Assembly (NCBI GenBank): GCA_028822375.1
Contig: JAPKDW010000018.1
Coordinates: forward strand, 1-33,575
DNA: 33,575 bases
From: Opitutaceae bacterium
GTDB taxonomy: Bacteria; Verrucomicrobiota; Verrucomicrobiia; Opitutales; Opitutaceae
Reading direction: 5' to 3'
The translations under genes were made by a program, and so were the position numbers. The notes below the pieces were generated by a model. That model saw nothing but the letters and a program-made list of their open reading frames with translations. It was not told the DNA's origin and ran no database searches. Shown one piece after another: positions 13,227-25,908 of the stretch. The first letter of the stretch is position 1. Every line of letters begins with the position of its first letter.

Positions 13227-13255
13227 AAAAGGAGAAGCTTCGGCTTCTCCTTTTT
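13227..13255 (+). terminator. Rho-independent terminator after csp
   Basis: A perfect 8-bp stem GGAGAAGC/GCTTCTCC closes a TTCG tetraloop (13231-13250), flanked by AAAA and TTTTT. It is 67 bases after the csp stop and is the best terminator in the window. Confidence 0.92.
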
Positions 13256-13575: not shown

Positions 13576-14937
13576 CTATTTGCTGTTTTCCGGGAGGACG
13601 ACATCCGAGGCTTCGATGGTGATGAGCTCTTTTTTGGAAAAGGTTTGTTTGAGCTGGCGGAGACGCATGGCTTGGTTGCGGATGATTTGTTCGAAAAGGT
13701 TTCGAACGTAACGGCCATTTCCGAAATCGTCGCCAGTATCAGAGAGAGCGTATTGGAATACTTGGGAAAGGTTTTTTTCGGCCCCTTTAGACAGTTTGTA
13801 TTGGTTGTTCTCGCAGAAGATTTTGAAGATCTTGGACAGCTCTGTCGGGTTGAAGTCGGAGAACAAAATGGTTTTGCTGAAGCGCGACTTTAGGCCGGGA
13901 TTCGATTGGATGAACTCGTTCATATCGTTTGGATACCCTGCGACGATAACGATCAGGCGATCGCGATCGTCTTCCATGCGTTTGACGAGGGTATCGATGG
14001 CTTCGCTGCCGAAATCGTTTTCGCCGCCGATAAGGCTGTAGGCTTCGTCGACAAAGAGAACTCCATCGAGGGAGCTGTTTATGATTTCGGAGGTTTTGAT
14101 GGCGGTATGCCCAACGTATTGCCCGACAAGGCCCATGCGGTCGGTCTCGACGAGATGTCCTTTCTTGAGGATGTTCAGCTTTTTGAAGATACGGGCGAGG
14201 ATACGCGCGACGGTGGTCTTGCCGGTACCGGGATTGCCTGAGAAAACGAGGTGGAGGGAGAGGGCGGCAGTTTTCAGCTGGAGCTCTTCGCGTTGCTTTT
14301 GGATTTCTAGAAAGTGAACGAGTTTTTCGATCTCGTCTTTCACGCCTTTTAGCCCGACGAGGGCGTTTAGAGTGGCGAGTTCCTCCTCAAGGGTTTTGTC
14401 GTCGTTTTCGGGAGGCAGCGATGCTTCTTGAGTTGTATTCGTTTTTTGGACATTTTTGAAGATAGGGGCGCTATCGCGATCGAATAGGGCTCGTGCTTCG
14501 GACTCGGCCTTGACAGCGCGGGCTTTGTCTTTTGCTAGGAGGGTATCGGCGAAATTCGACAGAAGGATCTGTTCGTCGCTGCTGAGCGCTCCGTCGGCGA
14601 GGGCGAGGGTGTAAGCAGCCTTTAGGATCTCGGCTGCGAGTACGGGGTGTTTGCTTGCTGCGCGCAGCTGGGTGAGGTCGTAGTCAAACAGGCTTTCAAT
14701 GCGGGATTTAAGCAGGCTTTCGTAGGTGGGGGACCAACCCAGTACGGTGAAGGCAGCGCGGAGGAAAGCGCGTTCGCTGGCATTCGTGTCGCCATCGATC
14801 AGTCCGGTTAGGAAAAAGGCGAAGCGCAGCTCGAAATCGATTTCGAAATCAGAGCAGCCGTGAGCGTTTACAAGGGCTTGTTTAGTTGCGGAAAAATTCG
14901 AAAGACAAGCAGCGGCAACAACGTTTGAATCGTCCAT
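13576..14937 (-). CDS. TerB-like domain plus CbxX/CfxQ-type AAA+ ATPase
   Basis: A 453-residue cytoplasmic protein. Residues about 30-140 form a TerB-like helical domain (FFLTGLIDGDTNASERAFLR and LALADGALSSDEQILLSNFA, with the acidic metal-binding type loops). The AAA+ module runs from about 190 to 440: NALVGLKGVKDEIEKLV, Walker A GNPGTGKT (234-241), the pore-loop region GLVGQYVGHT, Walker B VLFVDEAY (293-300), IVIVAGYPNDM with sensor 1, and GNGRYVRNLFEQ with the second arginine region. CbxX/CfxQ proteins remodel partner complexes (CbbX acts on Rubisco), but no Rubisco gene is here. It is the last gene of the nine-gene run, 41 bases after speD. I infer it remodels a partner encoded in the run, perhaps PspA. 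Confidence 0.88.
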   Translation of the reverse strand: MDDSNVVAAACLSNFSATKQALVNAHGCSDFEIDFELRFAFFLTGLIDGDTNASERAFLRAAFTVLGWSPTYESLLKSRIESLFDYDLTQLRAASKHPVLAAEILKAAYTLALADGALSSDEQILLSNFADTLLAKDKARAVKAESEARALFDRDSAPIFKNVQKTNTTQEASLPPENDDKTLEEELATLNALVGLKGVKDEIEKLVHFLEIQKQREELQLKTAALSLHLVFSGNPGTGKTTVARILARIFKKLNILKKGHLVETDRMGLVGQYVGHTAIKTSEIINSSLDGVLFVDEAYSLIGGENDFGSEAIDTLVKRMEDDRDRLIVIVAGYPNDMNEFIQSNPGLKSRFSKTILFSDFNPTELSKIFKIFCENNQYKLSKGAEKNLSQVFQYALSDTGDDFGNGRYVRNLFEQIIRNQAMRLRQLKQTFSKKELITIEASDVVLPENSK

Positions 14938-14978
14938 AGCGTGTGATTGAGGAGAAAATCGATCTGCCTAGATGCTAA

Positions 14979-15377
14979 TCAATGATTGCTTGGCCCGCGC
15001 ATAATGGTTTTGGCGGAGCAGGTGGCGGGGGCGAAGCGCCGTCCTATTTCATCTTGTATTCGCTGGGCAATGTCAGGTTCGCCGCATGTGAAGATATCGA
15101 TCGCCGCGTAACTGTGTTCTGGCCAAGTGTGCACTGTAATATGGCTTTCCGCGATGACGACGACTCCAGACAGTCCGTGGGGGCTGAACTGATGGAAGAC
15201 TGATTTGACGACATGCGCTCCAGCCTGCGTAGCGGACTCGACCAGAGCGCTCTCAAGTTGCTCCTTCTCGAGGAGAAGCGCTTGAGGGCAATGGTCGAGT
15301 TCCAACAGGATATGGGTGCCAAGCGCATGTGTGTGCGCTTGGGCCACGGGGGAGGTGTTGTGTTCGTCTCTAAACAC
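14979..15377 (-). CDS. speD: S-adenosylmethionine decarboxylase proenzyme
   Basis: A 132-residue bacterial class 1B AdoMetDC. The self-cleavage site and active site are intact in IAESHITVHTWPEHSYAAIDIFTCGEP: cleavage between Glu77 and Ser78 (Ser78 becomes the pyruvoyl group), with His83 and Cys98 as the catalytic residues. FHQFSPHGLSGVVV precedes it as in SpeH/SpeD. It makes decarboxylated AdoMet, the aminopropyl donor for spermidine synthesis. It begins six bases after the pspA stop, so the two genes are co-transcribed. The SpeE-like aminopropyltransferase that would use the product is the first gene of the same run. Confidence 0.95.
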   Translation of the reverse strand: MFRDEHNTSPVAQAHTHALGTHILLELDHCPQALLLEKEQLESALVESATQAGAHVVKSVFHQFSPHGLSGVVVIAESHITVHTWPEHSYAAIDIFTCGEPDIAQRIQDEIGRRFAPATCSAKTIMRGPSNH

Positions 15378-15383
15378 GTGCGC

Positions 15384-16082
15384 TTACTGCGTGACGTTCA
15401 ATTTGGCCTTGAGGGCGGCGAGCTTGTCATTGACTTCAACGGAAGCGCTGCCGCTAGCTCCGAGCCCCTCGAATTCTTTTTCAAGCCTATCTCCGCTACC
15501 GGTGGAGACGTCGGCGATTTCTTTGGCCGCATCGGCTTCGAAGCCTTGGCGTTCCGCCTTGGCTTTCATGCGAGCCATTAGGTCGTCGGCGTTGTTCTTG
15601 CCAGAGATGCGGGCCTTGGCTTCGTAGATGTCTTTCTTGACTTGGGCGGCTTTGCTTTGGGCGATAATAAAATCTTTATTCCGGCGGAATTCAGCCACTT
15701 CATCACCCATTTTGATGATTTCCTTTTTGAGTTCGTCGACGGAATCGCGTTGACTCTGCCACTGGCTTTGGAGGGTCGCCGCTTTCTGCTCGTGCTCGGT
15801 GCCGCGTTGCAGGGCTCGGATGGCAAGTTCTTCTTTGCCTGCCTTGAGGGCCATTTCCGCCTTCTGTTCCCAGGTGAATTTCTCGGCTTTTTCCTTTTCG
15901 AGAAGGGCCTTGGTTTGGCGTTCCGTAGCGATGCAGCTTTGGATGGATTTCTTGGCGTCACGGATCTGGGTTTCTTTGTCTCGAATGGCTTGCTCGAGCA
16001 TGAGTTCGGGCTTCTCCAGATTATCGACCATCTTATTTGCGGCGGCTTCGCCTACTTTGAATATGCGTGAAAATATGCTCAT
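15384..16082 (-). CDS. PspA/IM30 family membrane-integrity protein (YjfJ-like)
   Basis: A 232-residue, highly charged, almost wholly helical protein. The N-terminal amphipathic helix MSIFSRIFKVGEAAANKMVD is followed by EKPELMLEQAIRDKE, the conserved PspA/IM30 start, then long coiled coils (about residues 30-150: EQKAEMALKAGKEELAIRAL, KEIIKMGDEVAEFRR). A flexible tail (about 185-232) ends in NDKLAALKAKLNVTQ. PspA/Vipp1 proteins have an ESCRT-III-like fold and polymerise on stressed membranes. The neighbourhood (DUF2170, DUF350, polyamine enzymes) places it closer to E. coli YjfJ than to the phage-shock pspABC operon. No pspB, pspC or pspF is present. Confidence 0.93.
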   Translation of the reverse strand: MSIFSRIFKVGEAAANKMVDNLEKPELMLEQAIRDKETQIRDAKKSIQSCIATERQTKALLEKEKAEKFTWEQKAEMALKAGKEELAIRALQRGTEHEQKAATLQSQWQSQRDSVDELKKEIIKMGDEVAEFRRNKDFIIAQSKAAQVKKDIYEAKARISGKNNADDLMARMKAKAERQGFEADAAKEIADVSTGSGDRLEKEFEGLGASGSASVEVNDKLAALKAKLNVTQ

Positions 16083-16103
16083 ATCAGAAAAATGGGTCAG
16101 GGG

Positions 16104-16520
16104 TTAGGTTTCGTTTGTTTGGGCGGTGAAGAGCGCTTCGGCTTTGTCGACGGCAAGTTCTAGGGAGTCAAACACGCAGAGGATTTCATGGTCGTTGAGG
16201 CTGCCACTTTCGCGGCTCTCAACGAGCACGAGGCGCGGGTCTTCCGGGTTGGCGTTGTTGATCCCGAAGCTGACTGGGAGAATTTCCGTATTCAGATCGA
16301 GCAGCTTGAAGTGGAGGGACGCCGGGCCGAAGTCGTGGACGTTGCCGAGATCGACTTCGAAGTAGATGGTTTTGTCATTGATTTTCACGAAGACAGGGAG
16401 TTCTTCGTCTCGCGTGATTCTATAGACGTCGTTGTCGAGGTCTTCGACGTCGAAGCCGTGTAGCATGAGGAAACGGCTGAATTCTTCTTGAGTTTCTATT
16501 TTGACGATTACTTCGTTCAT
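16104..16520 (-). CDS. DUF2170 (YjfI-like) protein
   Basis: A 138-residue acidic soluble protein, close to the length of E. coli YjfI. The visible pattern is an N-terminal EEFSRFLMLHGFDVEDLDNDVYRITRDEELPVFVKI, then LPVSFGINNANPEDPRLVLVESRESGSL with LNDHEILCVFDSLELAVDKAEAL at the end. I assign it to DUF2170 from this and from its position directly before pspA, as yjfI is before yjfJ in E. coli. The biochemical role is unknown. It is 21 bases upstream of pspA. Confidence 0.6.
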   Translation of the reverse strand: MNEVIVKIETQEEFSRFLMLHGFDVEDLDNDVYRITRDEELPVFVKINDKTIYFEVDLGNVHDFGPASLHFKLLDLNTEILPVSFGINNANPEDPRLVLVESRESGSLNDHEILCVFDSLELAVDKAEALFTAQTNET

Positions 16521-16548
16521 TGTGTTGATGGAATGTTTGAAGGCTACG

Positions 16549-17646
16549 TTAAGCGATGCGCTTTCGTTTGATATCTTCTTCGATTGAAATAAAGTCTTCT
16601 AGTTTGTCGGCAAGGATAATGAGCTGGTCGCCTGCATCTACATTCGTATCCTTTGGCGGGTTTAGGATGTGTTTATCCTGTTTTACGATGCCGATGAGCA
16701 CCATATTAACCGGGTGATTGAGAGCGGCGATCTGCAGCTCGATAAAAGAGATTTCGGTTAGGGAAGTTGCATGGACGTAGAACTGGCTGCCATCCTGGTT
16801 GGTGATTAATTGCTCGAATGTTTTACGAATGCCGGGGTAAAGAAACTCCTGCACGATCATTCGCTCGTTGATGCCGTCCGATAGGACGATGCCGTCGGTA
16901 TTGGCCCGGTGCATCATCCGTAGGTTGCTGGTGCTGACGAGTTCGACTACGGTTTTGATGGGGTTGCCGGTTTCGAGTTCAATCAATTCTATGACGGAGC
17001 CGATGGCATAGGTCTGCGCGTCGCAAGAAGGGTCGCCGATTCTCTCAGGTAGAATGAACACCCCGTCGCATTGGCTGATATTCGCTTGATGGAGCGTTTC
17101 CTCGTTGATGGGCAGGCCTTTGACGAAGAGTATGCCGCGTTTCTGTAGCGGCTCGGGCAGCTCGTCGAAAGCGTTGCTGACGATTACAATGGTCCGGTCC
17201 TTGTAAGTCGCGGTTCCTTGGAGTTCGTCCAAGAGCATCAAAGTCTTGTCGACGTTGGGGCTATTGCAAATGACGATGTGGTTTTTGGCTGTGATGTTCA
17301 TAGCGCCTTTTTTTCGTTTGGATACGCGTTCGAGTAGAGATTCAGTTACTGCAGCGAGTAGATAGCCAAGCAGGCCGATGCCTACGAGAAAGCAGGGGTA
17401 GGCGATTAGGAAACGTCCGACGAAGGTTTGAGGGTATAGGTCGCCGTAGCCGACGGTGGTCATGGTGACCATCGCCCACCAGATGGAGTCGACGAGGGTC
17501 AATCCTTCGTTCACCGAGCGTTCTGCAAAATAGTACCCGACCCCGAAGACGAGATTCAAGCCTGCTGCGATGGCGAGGACGTTGATCGTCTTGACGCTGG
17601 AGGCGCTCCTCTTGGAGAGGAATCGTTTGAATAGGGCGAATAGCAT
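16549..17646 (-). CDS. Two-TM potassium channel with RCK (TrkA-N/TrkA-C) domains
   Basis: A 365-residue protein. TM1 is at about 20-41, the pore helix and filter follow as WWAMVTMTTVGYGDLYP (TVGYG at 64-68, the K+ selectivity filter), and TM2 at about 78-101. From about 120 there is an RCK N-domain (KNHIVICNSPNVDKTLMLLDEL), in which the usual glycine-rich nucleotide loop is replaced by CNSPNVD, and from about 290 an RCK C-domain (SFIELQIAALNHPVNMVLIGI, then NVDAGDQLIILAD). The start is ATG at 17646, 14 bases after the previous stop; an open extension to 17991 overlaps the upstream gene and is Arg/Pro-rich shadow sequence. It likely gates K+ flux in response to ligands or voltage within this stress operon. 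Confidence 0.92.
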   Translation of the reverse strand: MLFALFKRFLSKRSASSVKTINVLAIAAGLNLVFGVGYYFAERSVNEGLTLVDSIWWAMVTMTTVGYGDLYPQTFVGRFLIAYPCFLVGIGLLGYLLAAVTESLLERVSKRKKGAMNITAKNHIVICNSPNVDKTLMLLDELQGTATYKDRTIVIVSNAFDELPEPLQKRGILFVKGLPINEETLHQANISQCDGVFILPERIGDPSCDAQTYAIGSVIELIELETGNPIKTVVELVSTSNLRMMHRANTDGIVLSDGINERMIVQEFLYPGIRKTFEQLITNQDGSQFYVHATSLTEISFIELQIAALNHPVNMVLIGIVKQDKHILNPPKDTNVDAGDQLIILADKLEDFISIEEDIKRKRIA

Positions 17647-17660
17647 TTCCGATTTTCCGG

Positions 17661-18467
17661 CTAGAGTTCCCAGGGCTCTTTCCAGTGCTCGGGTTTGCCT
17701 GGAGATGCGTCGAAGACGTTGGTTTTGTCCTTCAGAACCTTGACGGCTTCGAGGGTGGATTCGTTGGGCGAATCGGCGGTCGGGTGGGCGATTTCTCGGT
17801 AGGGCGATTCTTCTTTTCCGTGTAGTTGCTCTACGAGCGAGAGTCCTTGGTTGACGATGTCTTGGATAACGGATTCGCCGGATACGGGGCCATCTTCGCT
17901 GTCCCAGCCGAGTTGCTCGATGCGCAGGGTCGAGTTGCAGATATTGAGAATTTCGTCCCACACGCTGCCTAGCAATAGGTCGAATGCCCAACCGGTTTCC
18001 GTTCGCCCGAAGCGCTCTTCGTTGACGAAGCTCATGAAAACGATTTCAACTGGATCGATTCCCTTGTAGGCGGCGATCGCCACGCGAAGGTCTTCCCAGC
18101 GTTCCTGTTTTAGGTGGGTTTTCCAGCTGGATTTAATGTCGAAATCGAAATAGTTGGCGAATGCGAAGCTGCCTTCCTCGAGATCGACAGCGCAGAATAC
18201 GTCGAAGAAAGTTAGAAAATCCGAGTAGCGGAGCATGAAGCGCTGGAGCGCGTCGCGTCCTTTTTCGGTGGGTGTGTAGCGTTCGTCGTCTTTGATTTGG
18301 ATTAAGTCGCGAACGAGCAACCATTCGAGGATGGGTTCCAGGTCTTCCTCTTCCCGCTCGAGCATGAGCGCAAAGAGCTTTGGAGCATTTATCATGTACT
18401 CCAGGAGATAGATCGCGGCAAACTGACTCTTCTGAGCCTCGGTAACCGAGTATTGGGCGATGGACAT
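17661..18467 (-). CDS. Uncharacterised protein of polyamine/PspA operon, winged-helix-like N-terminus
   Basis: A 268-residue acidic soluble protein without signal or membrane segment. Residues about 10-80 resemble a winged helix: several helices (AAIYLLEYMINAPKLFALML, EPILEWLLVRDLI) then a wing-like IKDDERYTPTEKGRDALQRF, a pattern common in DNA-binding or protein-interaction domains. The middle (FLTFFDVFCAVDLEEGSFAF, WEDLRVAIAAYKGIDPVEIVFMSFV) is a second, unrecognised alpha/beta domain; the last about 60 residues look disordered and end KPEHWKEPWEL. It starts four bases after the DUF350 gene and precedes the K+ channel gene by 14 bases. E. coli has yjfK (DUF2491) at a comparable place, but I see no clear likeness. 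Confidence 0.75.
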   Translation of the reverse strand: MSIAQYSVTEAQKSQFAAIYLLEYMINAPKLFALMLEREEEDLEPILEWLLVRDLIQIKDDERYTPTEKGRDALQRFMLRYSDFLTFFDVFCAVDLEEGSFAFANYFDFDIKSSWKTHLKQERWEDLRVAIAAYKGIDPVEIVFMSFVNEERFGRTETGWAFDLLLGSVWDEILNICNSTLRIEQLGWDSEDGPVSGESVIQDIVNQGLSLVEQLHGKEESPYREIAHPTADSPNESTLEAVKVLKDKTNVFDASPGKPEHWKEPWEL

Positions 18468-18471
18468 CGGT

Positions 18472-19380
18472 CTAGTTAAATAGCGTGGTGAGTATGAGAG
18501 TCAGACCAATCGCGGCTGTACCTTCGATCAGGGCGGCTCCCCAGTTGCGGTCCTTGGAGATTTCCTCGTCTAAAGACGCGCCGGGCAGAATGAATTTATC
18601 GACGACGTAGCGGCATACCGTGAGAAGGAAGACGCAGATAACGAACCATAGGGCGAGTCCTAGGATGGAGTCGTTGTTCACGATGTAGCTGGAGAGCAGC
18701 ATCCCGACTGCGGCTAGCGTGATACCGAAGCCGACGCCCGCAGCGGCGTTGTCTTTTTCGATTTCCTTATGGAGGTCGTAGGAGCTAATCTTTTGGTAGA
18801 CGATCGCGAAAAGGATGAAGGCGACTTGGCCAATGGCGAAATAGAGCAGAGTCGAGAAGACATCCGCGAGCAGGCTGCCGGAGGTTTCGCCGTAGGTGGC
18901 GGCTTGGATCGTGAAGGCAGAGCCAATGTAGGCTCCCGCTTGGACGGCGCCGGTCCCGATGTTTTGGTCCTCGACGAGTTCCTTTACGTTCTTGAACTGG
19001 CTCAGGAGAAACTTGTCGTTGGCGATGCGGGCTATTTGAAGCAGTCCGATTCCGAAGAGCGCCCAGATTAGCGTGCCGCCAATGTCTCGGAGCAAGAGGT
19101 TTTGGCCGCTTCCCGTGTCCGATACTGCTATGTCCTGCCGAAGGACTCCCCATAGGATGATGCCGATTGCGAGGATATATCCAGAGAAAGACACGGCGAT
19201 CGCCTTGTTGTCTTTGGTGGTAAGTTCGGTCGAAAGTTTGTATGGAGTGCAGAGGTCGTTGACTACTTTTCCAATCCATAGGATCGCGATTGCGAGGACG
19301 AGAAAGATGATCGCCTGGCTGTCGATGAGCGACAGGGCTTCTTCGGTTCCGAAAAACGCTTTAAGAGAATCTGTATTCAT
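18472..19380 (-). CDS. DUF350 (YjfL-like) membrane protein with two repeats
   Basis: A 302-residue integral membrane protein with about eight hydrophobic segments arranged as two similar four-helix halves, each resembling DUF350: first half KAIAVSFSGYILAIGIILWGVL with LIWALFGIGLLQIARI, second half AAAGVGFGITLAAVGMLLSSYIV with LALWFVICVFLLTVCRYVVDK. E. coli YjfL has one DUF350 unit (about 130 residues), so this is a tandem form, which is common outside enterobacteria. Its transport or sensing function is unknown. It lies 25 bases after the lipoprotein gene and four bases before the next gene, firmly inside the operon. Confidence 0.85.
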   Translation of the reverse strand: MNTDSLKAFFGTEEALSLIDSQAIIFLVLAIAILWIGKVVNDLCTPYKLSTELTTKDNKAIAVSFSGYILAIGIILWGVLRQDIAVSDTGSGQNLLLRDIGGTLIWALFGIGLLQIARIANDKFLLSQFKNVKELVEDQNIGTGAVQAGAYIGSAFTIQAATYGETSGSLLADVFSTLLYFAIGQVAFILFAIVYQKISSYDLHKEIEKDNAAAGVGFGITLAAVGMLLSSYIVNNDSILGLALWFVICVFLLTVCRYVVDKFILPGASLDEEISKDRNWGAALIEGTAAIGLTLILTTLFN

Positions 19381-19405
19381 TTTTTATTACTCCTGTTGAA
19401 GGGGT

Positions 19406-20269
19406 TTATTTGCCACCGCCTCGGTAGCTGGATGTTCGCGAGGTCCTGACGCTAGGGCTACTTGATCGGGAGCTGCTGCTTCCGAATCCTCCGCTTCGTA
19501 TCGTCTTGGATGGGTTGCGAGTTTGGAAACTCTTTTGGGCAGTGGTTGGGCTCTTGAGAGGGGCTTTGATGTTATTGGCGCTCTTGGTCGCGTTTGGAGA
19601 GGCCGAGGACGAGCTGAGACTTGAAGCGGTTGCCTTCGTGTAGCCGGAATTGCTCGTAGTCTTTCTCATATCGCTACGATAGGAATCGTAGTTTCGAGAC
19701 GGATAGGAACGGTAGGTGTTCGGGTAGCGTCCATAACCCCAAGGAGAGTAGTAGGGGCGATGGCTGCTGAAGAGCCATGAGACCAGAAGCACGTCGGTCA
19801 GAGAGGTGCGTCTGTGGTAGTAGTGACCTGAGCCGTAGAGATGCTGGTTTCCGTAAGTTTGGATGTGAGCGCGACCATCGCTCGTCTTTTCGATCTCAAT
19901 CGTGGCTACTTCCTGAGTTTGTCCATCTGCTAGATCGACGGTGAGGGAGAATCCGCGTTGGTTGTCGGTTCCGTATTCGGTTACCTTGATGTAGTCGACG
20001 GCGCCGTTTTCGTCGAGGTCGAGATTGTTGATGCCGACGCTGGAGTCGTTGAGCATTTGCTCGAACTCTCCGCCGGTCTTGGCGCGTTTGAGGAGTTCGC
20101 CAACGGCCTGCAAATCGAGACCGGAGGCTGCGTCCTGCGTAATCGTTTGCTGGACTGTGACGTTGTAATTGTTGGAGCGAGAGCTGCTGCGGCTACAATT
20201 CGAGCAGCTCGAAATTACGAAGAGAAATGCGAGTACGCCTATGCCGATGTTGAGGTGATTGGAGGTCAT
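19406..20269 (-). CDS. Ser/Gly/Arg-rich lipoprotein of polyamine/PspA operon
   Basis: A 287-residue protein with a lipoprotein-type signal (hydrophobic IGIGVLAFLFVISSC, lipid Cys22). The mature N-domain (about 37-130) contains NNLDLDENGAVDYIKVTEYG, with a DxDxNGxxD loop (84-92) that could bind Ca2+, and EVATIEIEK strands; a similar motif occurs in many secreted Bacteroidota proteins. A Tyr-rich stretch (YYSPWGYGRYPNTYRSYPSR) follows. The last about 90 residues are low-complexity Ser/Thr/Gly/Arg (SGGFGSSSSRSSSPSVRTSR), recalling the tails of YjfM-type DUF1190 proteins. It probably sits in the cell envelope, where a basic flexible tail could touch phospholipid or LPS. Confidence 0.75.
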   Translation of the reverse strand: MTSNHLNIGIGVLAFLFVISSCSNCSRSSSRSNNYNVTVQQTITQDAASGLDLQAVGELLKRAKTGGEFEQMLNDSSVGINNLDLDENGAVDYIKVTEYGTDNQRGFSLTVDLADGQTQEVATIEIEKTSDGRAHIQTYGNQHLYGSGHYYHRRTSLTDVLLVSWLFSSHRPYYSPWGYGRYPNTYRSYPSRNYDSYRSDMRKTTSNSGYTKATASSLSSSSASPNATKSANNIKAPLKSPTTAQKSFQTRNPSKTIRSGGFGSSSSRSSSPSVRTSRTSSYRGGGK

Positions 20270-20321
20270 GTTGTTTGCTTGTTCGTGTTATGCTGTGCGG
20301 CGTAAATAGAGGTTGCGAAGG

Positions 20322-22046
20322 CTAAAGAGTACTCTGCGAGCCTTTCCAGGCTTCGAGGTAGTAATTGTAGATACAAGGATTTGTAATCGTATTCACAGAT
20401 TGCTGATCCGTTTCGAGTTGGTTTTTTCCGAAGTGCAGTGATGCCCTGGTTAATTCGGATGTAAGGTACTTTGTGTGGCGAGTCAAGTTGGGGGTGTCGG
20501 ACAAAGCGTGTTTAAGTTTTGTTTCGCTATAAAACGTATCGCGACCGCCGATCCACCAGCCCCACTCGCCGAAGGAAGGCACGTTGTCGTGAAACGGCAC
20601 TGCCGTAAGGCCTCCGCTGTGTAGGGTCCTGCCGATGCAAAGGAATGCTTCCTTGGCGTGATAAGGAGAGGTGGATTGTTGGACGAAGACGCCGTCGGCG
20701 CTGAGTTTTTGGCGGATGAAACCGTAAAAGTGCTGGCTGTAGAGTTTGGCGAGCTCTACGGAATTGGGGTCGGGGAAGTCTATTATGATGACGTCGAACT
20801 TTCCGGGCGCTTGGGCGACGAATGCGGATGCATCTACGTTTAACACTGAAATCGTAGCTACGGTATCGGTGCTTTCTGCGTCGAAGTCGGTTGCTTTTGT
20901 GATAGATATTTTGGCTTCGCCGGTGTCGAGAAAGGCTTGGTTTTCGGTGGCGGTGACGCGTGTCGAGGAGAGGCTACCGTGGTTGAGGCGTTTGAAGTGG
21001 ACGTTGTTGCGAGCGAGATCGGTCATCATCGGATCTAGGTCTACGAGGGTGACCGATTCGACGTCGTCGTATTTTAGGACTTCCCGCAGCGCGAGACCAT
21101 CTCCCCCGCCGAGGATTAGCACTTTATCGCGTCGCGTCGCGATTTGCATGGCTGGGTGCACGAGGTGTTCGTGATAGATGTGCTCGTCGTGGCTGTTGAA
21201 CTGCAGGTGCCCGTTGATGAAGCAGGAGATCACTCCAGCGTGGCTCTCCGTGAGGACTATATGTTGGTATTTGGACGTTTCGGAAAAGATGATGCGGTCG
21301 CGATAGAGTCGTTGCTCGGCAGTTTGCGTCCAGTCGTCCCCGAAGGTGAATCCCACGCCAATCAAGATTCCAACGAGTCCGATGCCCGCGTAGAGGCGAG
21401 CATGGTAGGATGCCTGAGAGCGAAAGGATATTAGCAGAACGAGCGCTGTAAAAAGGGTGGTTAGAGCGAGGATCAGACCCGTTTGCACCATTGTGAAATA
21501 GCGGAACAGGAGGAATACCCAGAGCATCGCTCCAATCAGAGCCCCCATGTAATCCATTTTTAGGATACGGGCGAGATTGCTCTTAACGTCGGTAGAAAAT
21601 TGTTCGTTGATTCGAGAAAGCAGCGGGATTTCAAACCCTATCAAGATCCCAATGCTACTTATTAGCAGGTACTGCGTGAGCGCGAAGTGGGATGGATACG
21701 CGCTAAAGACATGCAGCATGAGCAATGACCCGAAACCTCCGAGCAGGGCCAGCAGGATTTGGCTGTAGACGAATATGTCGATCAGGCGCTTGTCTGAAAT
21801 GTGACGTTGGATCTCGGCTCCAAGACCCATGCAGAATAGCATTACGGCGATGACGATAGCCCACTGTTGGACGGAGTTTCCTAGGATATCGGATGCGATC
21901 TTGCTGAGCGTGTATTCATAGGCCATGCCGCATGCGCCCATCATGAACGTCACGCAGATGATCGCAACGGTTTGCAAAGAGCGGTGCTCGTTTGCTTTTG
22001 TTGAAAAGGGAGCCGGGGCGGAATTAGGCGCTTTAGGATTGCTCAT
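20322..22046 (-). CDS. speE: Polyamine aminopropyltransferase (spermidine synthase-like) with N-terminal membrane domain
   Basis: A 574-residue protein. Residues about 25-240 hold seven to eight transmembrane segments; the C-terminal half is a spermidine synthase domain with the decarboxylated-AdoMet loop LILGGGDGLALREVL (GGGDG at 313-317), VTLVDLDPMM, and IIIDFPDPNSVELAKLYSQHFY carrying the catalytic Asp. Between VTA (about 373) and VLNVDASAF (about 411) there is an extra stretch of about 30-40 residues compared with ordinary SpeE. It should transfer an aminopropyl group from dcAdoMet (made by SpeD, same run) to putrescine or another amine at the membrane. ATG 22046 is preferred over TTG 22070. 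It is the first gene of the run; 52 bases separate it from the lipoprotein gene. Confidence 0.9.
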   Translation of the reverse strand: MSNPKAPNSAPAPFSTKANEHRSLQTVAIICVTFMMGACGMAYEYTLSKIASDILGNSVQQWAIVIAVMLFCMGLGAEIQRHISDKRLIDIFVYSQILLALLGGFGSLLMLHVFSAYPSHFALTQYLLISSIGILIGFEIPLLSRINEQFSTDVKSNLARILKMDYMGALIGAMLWVFLLFRYFTMVQTGLILALTTLFTALVLLISFRSQASYHARLYAGIGLVGILIGVGFTFGDDWTQTAEQRLYRDRIIFSETSKYQHIVLTESHAGVISCFINGHLQFNSHDEHIYHEHLVHPAMQIATRRDKVLILGGGDGLALREVLKYDDVESVTLVDLDPMMTDLARNNVHFKRLNHGSLSSTRVTATENQAFLDTGEAKISITKATDFDAESTDTVATISVLNVDASAFVAQAPGKFDVIIIDFPDPNSVELAKLYSQHFYGFIRQKLSADGVFVQQSTSPYHAKEAFLCIGRTLHSGGLTAVPFHDNVPSFGEWGWWIGGRDTFYSETKLKHALSDTPNLTRHTKYLTSELTRASLHFGKNQLETDQQSVNTITNPCIYNYYLEAWKGSQSTL

Positions 22047-22165: not shown

Positions 22166-23584
22166 TCACCCGGTGAACAGTTTATGCACGACTTCTCCGG
22201 AGTTGAGGGTTGGTCGTTCCAGGCGACCGCCTGATTTGAATTCGAGGTTCATATGGTCGAGGCCCATTGCATACAAAATGGACGCGTGCAGGTCGTGTAC
22301 GTGGCAAGGCTCCTCGACTGCCCATAATCCGAGTTCGTCGGTCGAACCGATGACTTGCCCGCCTTTTACGCCACCTCCCGCCATCCACATGGTGAATCCA
22401 TAGGGGTTGTGATCTCGGCCGTCGCCTTTTTCGCTCATGGGCGTTCGCCCGAATTCGCCGCCCCATACGACTAATGTGTCTTCCAGCAAGCCGCGTCGTT
22501 TTAGGTCCTCGAGCAGGCCCGCGACAGGCAGGTCCATCGATTCGCACATCTTGCTGGCCTTGGTTTCATGATCCGCATGGGAATCCCATTTGCTGCCGGT
22601 TCCGCTATAGACTTGGACGAAGCGAACTCCTCGTTCGACCAATCGCCTGGCTTGCAGGCATTGGCTCCCGAATGCGGCGGTCGATTTTCCGTCCATTCCG
22701 TACAGCGTTTTGGTCGCATCGTCTTCTAGGCTTAGATCTACTGCCTCTGGGGCTTCGGCCTGCATCCGGTAAGCCAGTTCGTAGGAATCGATCCGCGCTT
22801 CCAGTTCGTCTTCGAATGTATTTTGCTTGGCATGACGCCGGTTCATTTCTTTCAGAAGGTCCAATTTCCCGCGTTGCCGTCTATCGCTAAGGCCCTCGGG
22901 CGGATAGAGATTTGGGATGGGAGTAGGTCCGTTTCGAAACAGCGTTCCTTGATAAGTCGCGGGCATGAAACCGGTGCCCCAATTTCGGACTCCTCCGAGT
23001 GGCATGGAATTATTATCGACCAAGACAACGTATCCAGGAAGGTTCTGATTTGCAGTTCCTAGTCCGTATACCGACCAAGCTCCGAGCGAAGGCCGTCCCC
23101 CGAGAGTCGATCCTGTATTCATTTGGCAAACCGAGCCCACGTGGTTGAGCCCGTCTGCCCAGCAGGATCGAATAACCGCTAGGTCGTCTGCATGTTTAGC
23201 GATGTTGGGACACCAATCCGAAATCCAAAGTCCGCTCTCTCCGTGCTGATTCCACGTTCGGGGCGAACCCATTAAGGGCGACCCTTGCTCGCCCATCGCG
23301 GTGACCGGTTCCTTGAAGCTGGATGGCAAACGCTGCCCCTCTAATTCGTTAAGCAGAGGTTTCGGGTCGAACATGTCTATGTGGCTTGGGCCACCTTCCA
23401 TAAAAAGGAATATCACATTCTTGGCCGTGGCCTTGTGCCGACTCACTTTGGCGAGCAATGGGTTGCTTGCCGCTCGCGCTTCATCCTGACCGAGAATGCC
23501 CGCAAGGGCGACTCCAGCTATGCCGCCGCCCGCTTTCATTAGAAAGTCGCGTCTCGATACGGCTGCTCTTACGTGGTAGTTCAT
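22166..23584 (-). CDS. DUF1501 family protein with Tat signal
   Basis: A 472-residue protein starting MNYHVRAAVSRRDFLMKAGGG, a twin-arginine signal (SRRDFL) followed by a hydrophobic region, so it is exported folded. The body has sulfatase/alkaline-phosphatase-like DUF1501 marks: NVIFLFMEGGPSHIDMFDPKP, GSTLGGRPSLGAWSVYGLG, FVQVYSGTGSKWDSHADHETK, VVWGGEFGRTPMSEKGDGRDHNPYGFTMWMAGGGVKGGQVIG. ATG 23584 is used because the in-frame ATG at 23657 lies inside the upstream gene. It starts 17 bases after the DUF1549/1553 gene, its invariable partner in Planctomycetota and Verrucomicrobiota. The reaction is not established; a hydrolase with metal ligands is likely. Confidence 0.93.
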   Translation of the reverse strand: MNYHVRAAVSRRDFLMKAGGGIAGVALAGILGQDEARAASNPLLAKVSRHKATAKNVIFLFMEGGPSHIDMFDPKPLLNELEGQRLPSSFKEPVTAMGEQGSPLMGSPRTWNQHGESGLWISDWCPNIAKHADDLAVIRSCWADGLNHVGSVCQMNTGSTLGGRPSLGAWSVYGLGTANQNLPGYVVLVDNNSMPLGGVRNWGTGFMPATYQGTLFRNGPTPIPNLYPPEGLSDRRQRGKLDLLKEMNRRHAKQNTFEDELEARIDSYELAYRMQAEAPEAVDLSLEDDATKTLYGMDGKSTAAFGSQCLQARRLVERGVRFVQVYSGTGSKWDSHADHETKASKMCESMDLPVAGLLEDLKRRGLLEDTLVVWGGEFGRTPMSEKGDGRDHNPYGFTMWMAGGGVKGGQVIGSTDELGLWAVEEPCHVHDLHASILYAMGLDHMNLEFKSGGRLERPTLNSGEVVHKLFTG

Positions 23585-23601
23585 TTTGTCCGATCGAGGG
23601 T

Positions 23602-25737
23602 TCAGTTGATATACAGGAATTCGTTTGTATTTAATAAAACATGACACAAGTCGATCCATGCAGTTCTCCTAGAATCGTTTTTAGAATGGGCGTATTCCAA
23701 GAATGTTCGAGCGCTTTCAAGCTCTTCGATCGACGGGCTACGCCCGAAAGCGAAGCGATAGGCTTGGGCGATACGATCGGAGGCGCTTACGCCTTCGTCT
23801 TCGAGAACGCGATCGGCGAAACGTTCGGCGCGGGTGATCGACCATTGCCCGTTTAGAAGGGTCAGCGCTTGGATCGGAGTAGTGGTGGTGTCGCGAGTGG
23901 GGCAGCTGTTGTGGAAATCCGGCGTGTCGAAGGCGTTCATCATTGTCATGAGTTTATTACGTTTGTTCTGCACGTATATGGAGCGCCGGTTTGTCTTTTC
24001 CTCAGACACTGCAGGCCCGCCCATACTTCCATCGATTTCACCGCTGACGAATAACATCGAATCGCGTAACTGTTCGGCATCCATTCGCTGAACGGGCATC
24101 CGCCAAAGGAAGTGATTGTCCTGGTCTATAATTTCGGCTTCCGCGAAATCCTCGGGAACGGTCGCCTGACGATAGGTCGAGGAGGTCATGATAATTCGGT
24201 GCATGGCTTTCATGTCCCAGTCTTGTTCGACGAATTTCCGAGCAAGCCAGTCGAGCAATTCAGGGTGAGTCGGTTGCTGTCCGAGATGGCCGAAATCATT
24301 GCTCGACGCCACGATGCCGGTTCCGAAATGCCATTGCCATATACGGTTTACGATTACGCGGCCGCTTAAAGGGTTCTCTCCATCGGTTAGCCATCGAGCT
24401 AGTTCTGCTCGTTGACCGGTACTGTTCTGGCGCTTCTCGAATGTTGGATCGGCTATGTCTAAAATCGAAAGGTAGCCGGGCTTGATCAATTCCCCATCAC
24501 GATCCGAGTTGACGTAGGCTCGAGGCGCATCAGCTCCAATGTCGCGAACCGCAGAGACCTGGCCTAGATCTTTTGGTTTGAAGTGATCGAATGTTTTAAG
24601 TTCTTTCTTTAACTCCTGCCATTGCTCCAGTTCTTCGCCTTTGATGTGCTTTGCGAATGTTTTTGCCGAACGATTGGAAAGCATTTTGAGCCCGAACCGG
24701 GCGAGCTGTTCTTCGTACGGCGTTCGATCTTCCGTATCCAGAATTTCTTGCATATAGGTAGGGAGCTTTTTTCTGAAAAACGCCCACTCGGTTTTCACTG
24801 CTTTGTCTTTGATTGGGGCCATCTTCGCGTGGATGCCTGCCGTCATCTTTTCCCAAGCGAGATTCTTTTCAATGTAGGTTTCGTTTGTGACAATGCTGTT
24901 TAGTTGGATTTCTTCCCAGGGTGAGATCGCGGAGAAAAATGCCCGAAAGCGATAGTAGTCTTTTTGGCTGATCGGGTCGAATTTGTGATCGTGGCAACGA
25001 GCGCACTTCATGCTTAGTCCCAGGAATACATCGCCGGATACATCAGCTATGTCGTCTAAGGTGGCTTCCCAGTGACGACTCATGTCCGGTTGATTGTCTT
25101 CGTAGGGCCAAAGCCGCAAGTATCCGGTAGCTTTCTTTGCGTCATCACTATCTGGGTACAGTTCGTCTCCAGCGATCTGCTCTTTTACGAACCGCGCGTA
25201 GGGTTTGTTCTCATTGAACGATTCGATAACGTAGTCGCGATATCGCCAGGCATTGGGCCTGAGGGCGTCCGATTTGAAACCGTCTGAATCGGCGTACCTG
25301 ACGAGGTCCAGCCAATGACGGGCATAACGTTCTCCATAGCGCGGCGATTCTAGCAAGCGATCGATCAGGCGTTCGTAGGCATTCGAGCTTGAGTCGCTAA
25401 GAAATGCGTCCACCTCTGCAACGGTCGGAGGCACGCCGTGCAAGTCTAGGGAGACACGGCGGATCAGGCTTTGGCGAGTGGCTTCGGGACTGGGTTGGAG
25501 GCCGTGCGTTTCGAGACGGGCTAGCACGAAGGCGTCAATAGGATTTCGCGGCCAGCTGGCATTGCGCGTTTCCGGAACCAGCGGCGATTCGATTGCTTGG
25601 AAAGCCCAGTAGGACTGGTCTTCTTCACTGAATGAATCGTCGGTTTTTTTCGCGTCAAGGGTAGCGATTGACGCGAAAAGGGCGCAGCAAATAACGAGTC
25701 CTTTTAGAGGATACGGCACTGGAGCTTTGTTTCTCAT
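23602..25737 (-). CDS. DUF1549/DUF1553 protein with CxxCH motif
   Basis: A 711-residue exported protein; signal peptide about residues 1-29 (YPLKGLVICCALFASIATLDA), start at ATG 25737 because the in-frame extension to 25824 would bury the signal. DUF1549 covers about 60-260 (NPIDAFVLARLETHGLQPSP, RRVSLDLHGVPPT, YGERYARHWLDLVRYADSDG), with the cytochrome-like CARCHDHKFDPIS (Cys245, Cys248, His249) as a possible haem or metal site. DUF1553 lies at about 430-690 (RAELARWLTDGENPLSGRVIVNRIWQWHFGTGIV, RMDAEQLRDSMLFVSG, ALTLLNGQW). No separate cytochrome c domain is fused. It forms an operon with the DUF1501 gene; function is thought to concern extracellular or periplasmic carbohydrate metabolism but is unproven. 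Confidence 0.93.
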   Translation of the reverse strand: MRNKAPVPYPLKGLVICCALFASIATLDAKKTDDSFSEEDQSYWAFQAIESPLVPETRNASWPRNPIDAFVLARLETHGLQPSPEATRQSLIRRVSLDLHGVPPTVAEVDAFLSDSSSNAYERLIDRLLESPRYGERYARHWLDLVRYADSDGFKSDALRPNAWRYRDYVIESFNENKPYARFVKEQIAGDELYPDSDDAKKATGYLRLWPYEDNQPDMSRHWEATLDDIADVSGDVFLGLSMKCARCHDHKFDPISQKDYYRFRAFFSAISPWEEIQLNSIVTNETYIEKNLAWEKMTAGIHAKMAPIKDKAVKTEWAFFRKKLPTYMQEILDTEDRTPYEEQLARFGLKMLSNRSAKTFAKHIKGEELEQWQELKKELKTFDHFKPKDLGQVSAVRDIGADAPRAYVNSDRDGELIKPGYLSILDIADPTFEKRQNSTGQRAELARWLTDGENPLSGRVIVNRIWQWHFGTGIVASSNDFGHLGQQPTHPELLDWLARKFVEQDWDMKAMHRIIMTSSTYRQATVPEDFAEAEIIDQDNHFLWRMPVQRMDAEQLRDSMLFVSGEIDGSMGGPAVSEEKTNRRSIYVQNKRNKLMTMMNAFDTPDFHNSCPTRDTTTTPIQALTLLNGQWSITRAERFADRVLEDEGVSASDRIAQAYRFAFGRSPSIEELESARTFLEYAHSKNDSRRTAWIDLCHVLLNTNEFLYIN

Positions 25738-25908
25738 GGGTATATATTGGGGCAGTTGCCGAAGTAAACAGGGGGTAGTGGTGAGGTGTTCATAGATTGT
25801 TCCACAAATCGACAGAATCGTCAAGGTGACAGCGCTGAACCTGGGGACGCTGCTGCGCGTTGCTCCTATTGTAGGTTGCCTCGCTGAGGCGACCCTTTTT
25901 CGTCCGCT

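Follow-up and report, generated by a model that had tools for sequence, protein, structure and literature searches.

The window analyzed here, a 33,575-nucleotide stretch of DNA that makes up contig C383 (JAPKDW010000018.1) of an Opitutaceae bacterium, carries a nine-gene operon on its minus strand. The operon is a Verrucomicrobiota variant of the CesT-PspA operons that contain a seven-transmembrane (7TM) SpeE, a kind of operon that is itself already published, and is characterized by a defined gene set, a conserved order, sharp borders and the persistence of most of its genes in genomes where it has broken up. From 22046 down to 13576 the genes encode SpeE, a surface or membrane-anchored protein (LPP), a double DUF350 protein, an unrecognized protein (UNK6), a K+ channel, a CesT-like chaperone, PspA, SpeD and a TerB-like/AAA+ ATPase. 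The source genome, hereafter G000, spans 4.56 Mb in 457 contigs and is 93.4% complete and 2.1% contaminated; loci are coded L and other genomes G.

All nine minus-strand genes that a first-pass annotation had described as separated by 4-52 bases are present in the gene and gap read-out of the window, with gaps, from SpeE onward, of 52, 25, 4, 14, 28, 21, 6 and 41 bases. Family matches bear out most of the names given there. SpeE (20322-22046) combines seven hydrophobic segments by a simple Kyte-Doolittle count with an aminopropyltransferase domain (NF002956, 580 bits versus a cut-off of 472), and the double DUF350 membrane protein (18472-19380), which is YjfL-like, matches PF03994 at 190 bits in two stretches. 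The two-transmembrane K+ channel (16549-17646) pairs a TVGYGD filter with an RCK domain (Ion_trans_2, PF07885; Slo-like RCK, PF22614), PspA (15384-16082) matches PspA_IM30 (PF04012) at 133.7 bits, and SpeD (14979-15377), an S-adenosylmethionine (AdoMet) decarboxylase, matches TIGR03330 at 124.5 bits versus a cut-off of 75.65. The ATPase (13576-14937) carries AAA and AAA_lid_6 domains of the CbbX/SpoVK type. UNK6 (17661-18467) likewise keeps its description as unrecognized, matching no family at E 0.001. We place the channel start at the ATG at 17646, without overlap with UNK6, because the first residue of the channels of loci L006, L007 and L008 aligns there.

Absence of a conserved gene order in relatives had been set beforehand as an observation that would speak against the operon, and the identical nine-gene order was found in six loci: the window, L006, L007, L008, L017 (G541) and L018 (G608), the latter five with 58-87% protein identity to the window. 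Among named organisms, those closest to the window at the locus are Puniceicoccaceae bacterium K14, Pelagicoccus sp. SDUM812002 and a Verrucomicrobia metagenome-assembled genome. Two further loci depart from this arrangement to different degrees. In L019 (G295) all nine genes keep their order, SpeE and LPP being some 3.3 kb apart, and in L020 (G291) LPP, UNK6, channel, CesT, PspA, SpeD and AAA+ follow one another, with DUF350 beyond the AAA+ gene on the opposite strand and, roughly 3 kb past it, SpeE. None of the 11 proteins flanking the operon in the window was matched in nine stretches from eight other genomes, which extend about 2-7 kb past the operon, so that the shared order goes beyond what chance would give.

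UNK6 was found in two of 288 genomes of the phylum and, by profile, in six of 372 genomes of the order (the window's own included in both counts), in two of the six genomes of G046's order including G046, and in three loci of named relatives; the order-wide profile search found none in four congeners of G000. SpeE at E 1e-60 was matched in 11 of the 372 genomes of the order, and matches above 900 bits occur in six, which are exactly the six UNK6 genomes. The remainder comprises four matches of 263-321 bits and a 374-bit fragment that lies where a contig of G373 (75% complete) ends. Because the sampled genomes are related by descent, co-occurrence counts such as these are not independent.

Broken-up operons fall into two modules, SpeE/LPP/DUF350 and UNK6/K+ channel/CesT-like/PspA/SpeD/AAA+. 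In G046 a single contig carries UNK6-CesT-PspA-SpeD-AAA near 1.00 Mb and, about 0.69 Mb away, SpeE-LPP-DUF350 near 1.69 Mb. G297 has LPP-DUF350-UNK6 on contig C21, CesT-PspA on C1, SpeE on C46 and AAA+ on C15, with no SpeD match in an assembly that is 95% complete. G619 (86% complete) holds UNK6 and the channel at one contig end and CesT-PspA-SpeD-AAA at the end of another, with no SpeE match. Across the eight G-coded UNK6 genomes, CesT-PspA and AAA+ are each present in all eight, SpeD and membrane SpeE each in seven, and LPP and DUF350 in seven (G619 was not searched throughout); the channel is adjacent in six, G046 and G297 being the others, whose whole genomes were not searched for it. A second arrangement, subtype B (G131, G339 and G289), reads DUF4178-DUF350-unknown-SpeE-CesT-PspA-SpeD-AAA; in G131 and G339, unlike G289, the channel gene sits after SpeE and before CesT. 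It resembles the window in DUF350, SpeE, the CesT-PspA-SpeD-AAA tail and, in two of three genomes, the channel, and differs in having DUF4178 and another unknown protein in place of UNK6 and LPP. The three subtype B genomes are among the four with a 263-321-bit SpeE; in the fourth, G143, a flavin amine-oxidase-like gene accompanies DUF4178, SpeE and SpeD, and profile searches found neither a CesT match nor the operon-type AAA+ there.

The earlier claim that the genes are a single conserved unit finds support, and the published operons it resembles are those with PspA, DUF350 and SpeE in the PSP survey (PMC11237479), whose passages cited here already couple CesT-PspA with polyamine genes. Group 2 of that survey (Shewanella-type, AAN56744-AAN56747) is described in them as having a CesT/Tir-PspA dyad, a 7TM-fused spermidine-synthase-like domain, an eight-transmembrane DUF350 protein and a lipoprotein. 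The window has the dyad in adjacent genes (PF05932, 22.7 bits versus a cut-off of 22; PF04012), the spermidine-synthase-like domain with an N-terminal 7TM region, and two DUF350 stretches, although a simple count gives seven hydrophobic segments there. In the window UNK6 and LPP appear to stand in for the DUF4178 protein and the Ctha_1186 lipoprotein of group 2; DUF4178 matches none of the nine operon proteins and is present in subtype B. Those passages do not list SpeD, the K+ channel or TerB-AAA+ for group 2; the window has all three. With group 3, the E. coli yjfIJKLMC type, the window shares PspA, DUF350 and a K+ channel with a ligand-sensing domain (PF07885, PF22614), and it differs from the E. 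coli locus in being without the ATP-grasp ligase, DUF2491, DUF1190 and DUF2170. The alignment of the window PspA with E. coli YjfJ covers no more than 48 residues. Peptide-spermidine ligase activity is named for YgiC and YjfC (PMC12270671, in the part cited); no ATP-grasp amine ligase occurs among the nine operon proteins, the rest of the genome not having been searched.

The Pseudomonas aeruginosa bac cluster likewise pairs a PspA homolog, BacB, with an adjacent protein of CesT fold, BacA. Unlike the window, its BacA is a DUF2170 protein, and the portion of the paper cited reports no spermidine-synthase homolog in or around bac (PMC10948618). PspB, PspC and PspF of the classical Psp operon are absent from the nine proteins, a comparison limited to the operon and not extended to the genome. 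Among the groups in the cited part of the PSP survey, none unites SpeD, the K+ channel, UNK6 and TerB-AAA+ with CesT-PspA/7TM-SpeE, and the AAA+ partners of PspA named there are other proteins (PMC11237479); no other literature on this gene combination appeared among the matches listed.

At E 1e-60 the AAA+ ATPase profile picked out 11 of 17 hand-chosen genomes, the very ones with CesT-PspA, and gave no match in the six that have no such pair (the four congeners, G143 and G373), and the co-occurrence holds even where the ATPase is encoded far away in the genome. This 11/11 versus 0/6 pattern makes the ATPase a candidate Vps4-like remodeler of PspA. Its nearest relatives are SpoVK, EccA and CbbX, with CbbX and EccA1 the closest solved structures; it aligns along CbbX and keeps the LVGQYIGHT segment of CbbX (in the form LVGQY(V/I)GHT), which we take to be the CbbX pore loop. 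The likeness to ESCRT-III/Vps4 thus lies in an AAA+ linked to a PspA of the ESCRT-III superfamily, whereas the ATPase itself is nearest CbbX/SpoVK/EccA and not Vps4, and its N-terminus is TerB-like, with no MIT domain as in Vps4-type proteins. The TerB match is marginal (25.0 bits versus a cut-off of 24.4 in the window, 13.3 bits in L037). PspA is placed within the ESCRT-III superfamily and chaperones or PspF have been suggested to play the part of Vps4 (PMC11746142), while the assembly and disassembly of IM30 are termed poorly understood (PMC11520248), each in the sections cited. From the CbbX-like ATPase and the position of PspA in the ESCRT-III superfamily we infer that motor, chaperone and polymer form a triad at the membrane. 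How PspA, as a bacterial ESCRT-III protein, is disassembled has not been settled, and the ATPase would offer a concrete, testable motor from a clade that includes the Rubisco remodeler CbbX.

The proposed chaperone (16104-16520) had been labeled DUF2170, a label we reject: the gene has no DUF2170 match even at E 10 and matches CesT (PF05932) at 22.7 bits. A second family, CesT_Tir_1, reaches 23.8 bits versus a cut-off of 27. The G046 ortholog falls below both cut-offs and the G289 ortholog above one, and the CesT profile matched nine of the 372 genomes of the order. Comparison with YjfI by hhalign gave 0.3%, a weak test with a single sequence as target; the predicted model (pLDDT 43.4) is too poor for use, and PDB profiles gave two matches only, at E 1.3-1.4. 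The cited part of the PSP survey places DUF2170 within the CesT superfamily (PMC11237479), so the mislabel is perhaps an error of family and not of fold. Elsewhere in G000 there is a second PspA, in L002 (G000:C36:619-1284, 109.2 bits), near a sequence that weakly matches the channel protein (23% over 117 residues).

SpeD and SpeE belong to the enzyme families of spermidine synthesis and have catalytic-type motifs. GGGDG, YHE and D-x-PDP are kept across the aligned SpeE family, and among solved structures SpeE is best related to thermospermine and spermidine synthases. Membrane SpeE of the window subtype has an insertion that breaks Pfam and NCBIfam matches in two; the subtype B SpeE of L038 is without it. 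One SpeD match and one SpeE gene over the cut-off occur in each of G000, G541, G608, G291 and G046; G046 has two extra SpeE-domain matches below the cut-off, and G295 two extra, longer proteins with a SpeE domain. In the four operon-less congeners of G000, profile searches found neither SpeD nor SpeE. The genes speA and nspC, the latter presumably a spermidine-synthesis gene in these genomes, exceed their cut-offs in the same eight of 12 genomes, including three operon-less congeners and G000, where both sit on contigs other than the operon's. Neither exceeds its cut-off in G046, G291 and G619, which carry the system; lysA is the best match of the PF02784 proteins of G046 and G619 (344.6 and 344.4 bits, above the cut-off) and of that of G291 (261.1 bits, below it), and G291 has a further 19-bit PF02784 match. 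We read this pattern as an aminopropyl route probably bound to the operon and distinct from housekeeping polyamine synthesis.

The indications of functional unity lead us to a tentative reading, held at a little under an even chance, in which the nine genes form one CesT-PspA envelope-maintenance system in a Verrucomicrobiota arrangement. PspA would be the membrane-remodeling polymer, the CesT-like protein would hold PspA or a membrane client, and the CbbX-type ATPase would thread or extract PspA subunits so that the polymer is remodeled and recycled, as Vps4 does for ESCRT-III. SpeD would make decarboxylated AdoMet, and membrane SpeE would use it at the membrane to aminopropylate an acceptor, probably something other than bulk putrescine. 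Gene neighborhood suggests that DUF350 and LPP may act with SpeE on the aminopropyl product or site, that the channel may adjust membrane potential and that UNK6 may be a regulator or adaptor. Control of K+ flux and deployment upon envelope damage, as first proposed, would follow from the family names. In a bolder form, which we think unlikely, TerB-AAA+ would be a dedicated PspA motor with the CesT-like protein as helper, and SpeD/7TM-SpeE would aminopropylate a membrane lipid or protein and yield no free polyamine. If true, a repair machine resembling ESCRT-III would operate in bacteria, coupled with a membrane modification that is new. Since the operon-bound decarboxylated-AdoMet route appears separable from speA/nspC, the acceptor of the membrane aminopropyltransferase would be testable in culturable hosts such as Pelagicoccus.

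Several observations weigh against the single-system reading. SpeE without a SpeD match in G297 means either that SpeE may work without this donor enzyme or that the 95%-complete assembly misses SpeD, and G619 (86% complete) presents the reverse, with no SpeE match. The channel is not adjacent in G046 and G297, and G143, with SpeE, SpeD and DUF4178 and neither CesT nor the operon-type AAA+, indicates that the aminopropyl part is separable from PspA. The normal aminopropyltransferase motifs of SpeE fit ordinary polyamine synthesis too, the TerB match is weak, the sample's shared ancestry bears on every co-occurrence count, and the functional roles are drawn from sequence comparison.

Ordinary polyamine synthesis is the rival we take most seriously, as possible and clearly less probable than a single envelope-maintenance system: the operon's product, spermidine or some other free polyamine, would be made at the membrane and stabilize it during PspA repair. 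SpeD and SpeE both exceed curated enzyme-family cut-offs, and the conserved motifs and solved relatives of SpeE agree with such a role. However, G000 has its own speA and nspC, and G046, G291 and G619 have neither over the cut-off, so that a source of putrescine is not evident in these three relatives (uptake, AAT-fold decarboxylases and other routes were not searched); putrescine as the acceptor of SpeE thus appears doubtful from their genome context. In Li et al. 2019, similar membrane fusions reportedly did not replace spermidine synthase. The first-pass annotation had argued that the polyamine may be the final product because the ATP-grasp ligase is absent; the absence from the operon stands, and the conclusion is weakened by the location of speA and nspC elsewhere in G000, by the congeners without SpeD and SpeE and by the three relatives without either speA or nspC. 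The cited part of the PSP survey leaves open "aminopropylation of other substrates" (PMC11237479).

The separations described above would also suit a loose storage cluster of co-transcribed stress genes working separately, with PspA at the membrane, SpeD/SpeE in metabolism and the AAA+ on another client, since the modules lie apart in G046 and G297 and the aminopropyl part stands alone in G143. Most pieces nevertheless remain in the genome after separation, and the CesT-PspA-SpeD-AAA block is kept by two subtypes, and we consider such a cluster quite unlikely. Still more improbable, to the point of being nearly negligible, is an anti-phage system built from TerB, AAA+, PspA and the channel. 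Its appeal lies in the patchy spread of the operon (UNK6 in six of 372 genomes and absent from four congeners) and in weak PADLOC matches, to IetA at best for the AAA+ (36.7 bits) and to mad2 for SpeE (50.2 bits); however, both fall on widespread domains, seven of the nine proteins have no PADLOC match, and UNK6 has no match in phage or plasmid collections.

The lipoprotein label of LPP (19406-20269) would suit the window copy, which has a lipobox-like cysteine, and holds less well across the family, where a cysteine in that place occurs in six of eight aligned homologs and is missing from L021 and L023. LPP matches no family at E 0.001, and PDB profiles gave one match, at E 4.9. DUF1190 finds no support as an assignment, appearing only at E 0.025, below the cut-off, with 0.4% against YjfM. 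In the eight-sequence alignment the basic, Ser/Gly-rich tail is strongly conserved (SPNA-K-...-APL--P---QK-FQ-RNPSK...GGFG, with a C-terminal K), and a D-L-[DN]-E-[DN] loop may bind metal. The N-terminus of UNK6 is winged-helix-like on weak grounds (HTH_45 at E 0.23 in the window and 0.18 in L005). Its model, predicted from four sequences (pLDDT 40.8), is too poor for use, PDB profiles gave no match, and DUF2491 is unsupported (1% against YjfK).

Further observations concern the surroundings of SpeE and the region as a whole. A flavin amine-oxidase-like gene adjoins SpeE in G291 (L020:760-2268, between SpeE and DUF350) and in G143 (L039:8621-10249, between SpeE and SpeD), the two being 27% identical over their length; a polyamine oxidase is mentioned for related operons in the cited part of the PSP survey (PMC11237479). 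Between SpeE and LPP, G295 encodes two exported-looking proteins with C-terminal sorting-type tails (L019:12469-15022). The operon-less congener G489 has speA only as short, separate pieces below the cut-off (G489:C7:96507-97333) and no nspC over the cut-off, possibly through decay of the polyamine route. Upstream of SpeE, L008 and L017 look alike by eye, sharing a TTGTAACCAA element and a block near GACAAA...GTGAAAAG, possibly a conserved promoter or operator; the likeness was not seen in the other four loci, and a sigma-54-like pattern was dropped, being present in one of six. In the window, DUF1501 and PSD1/PSCyt2 genes (22166-25824) lie on the same strand and end 119 bases upstream of SpeE. 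These neighbors are absent from the relatives' loci and no flanking gene is common to them, so DUF1501 was set aside as an operon member, although it may be co-transcribed. Promoter-like sites across the region number five versus 5.2 in shuffles and terminator-like sites 16 versus 12.4 (standard deviation 3.7), an excess that is not clear, and neither count bears on internal units either way; a 12-pair terminator-like hairpin lies on the minus strand downstream of the AAA+ gene, at 13227-13254.

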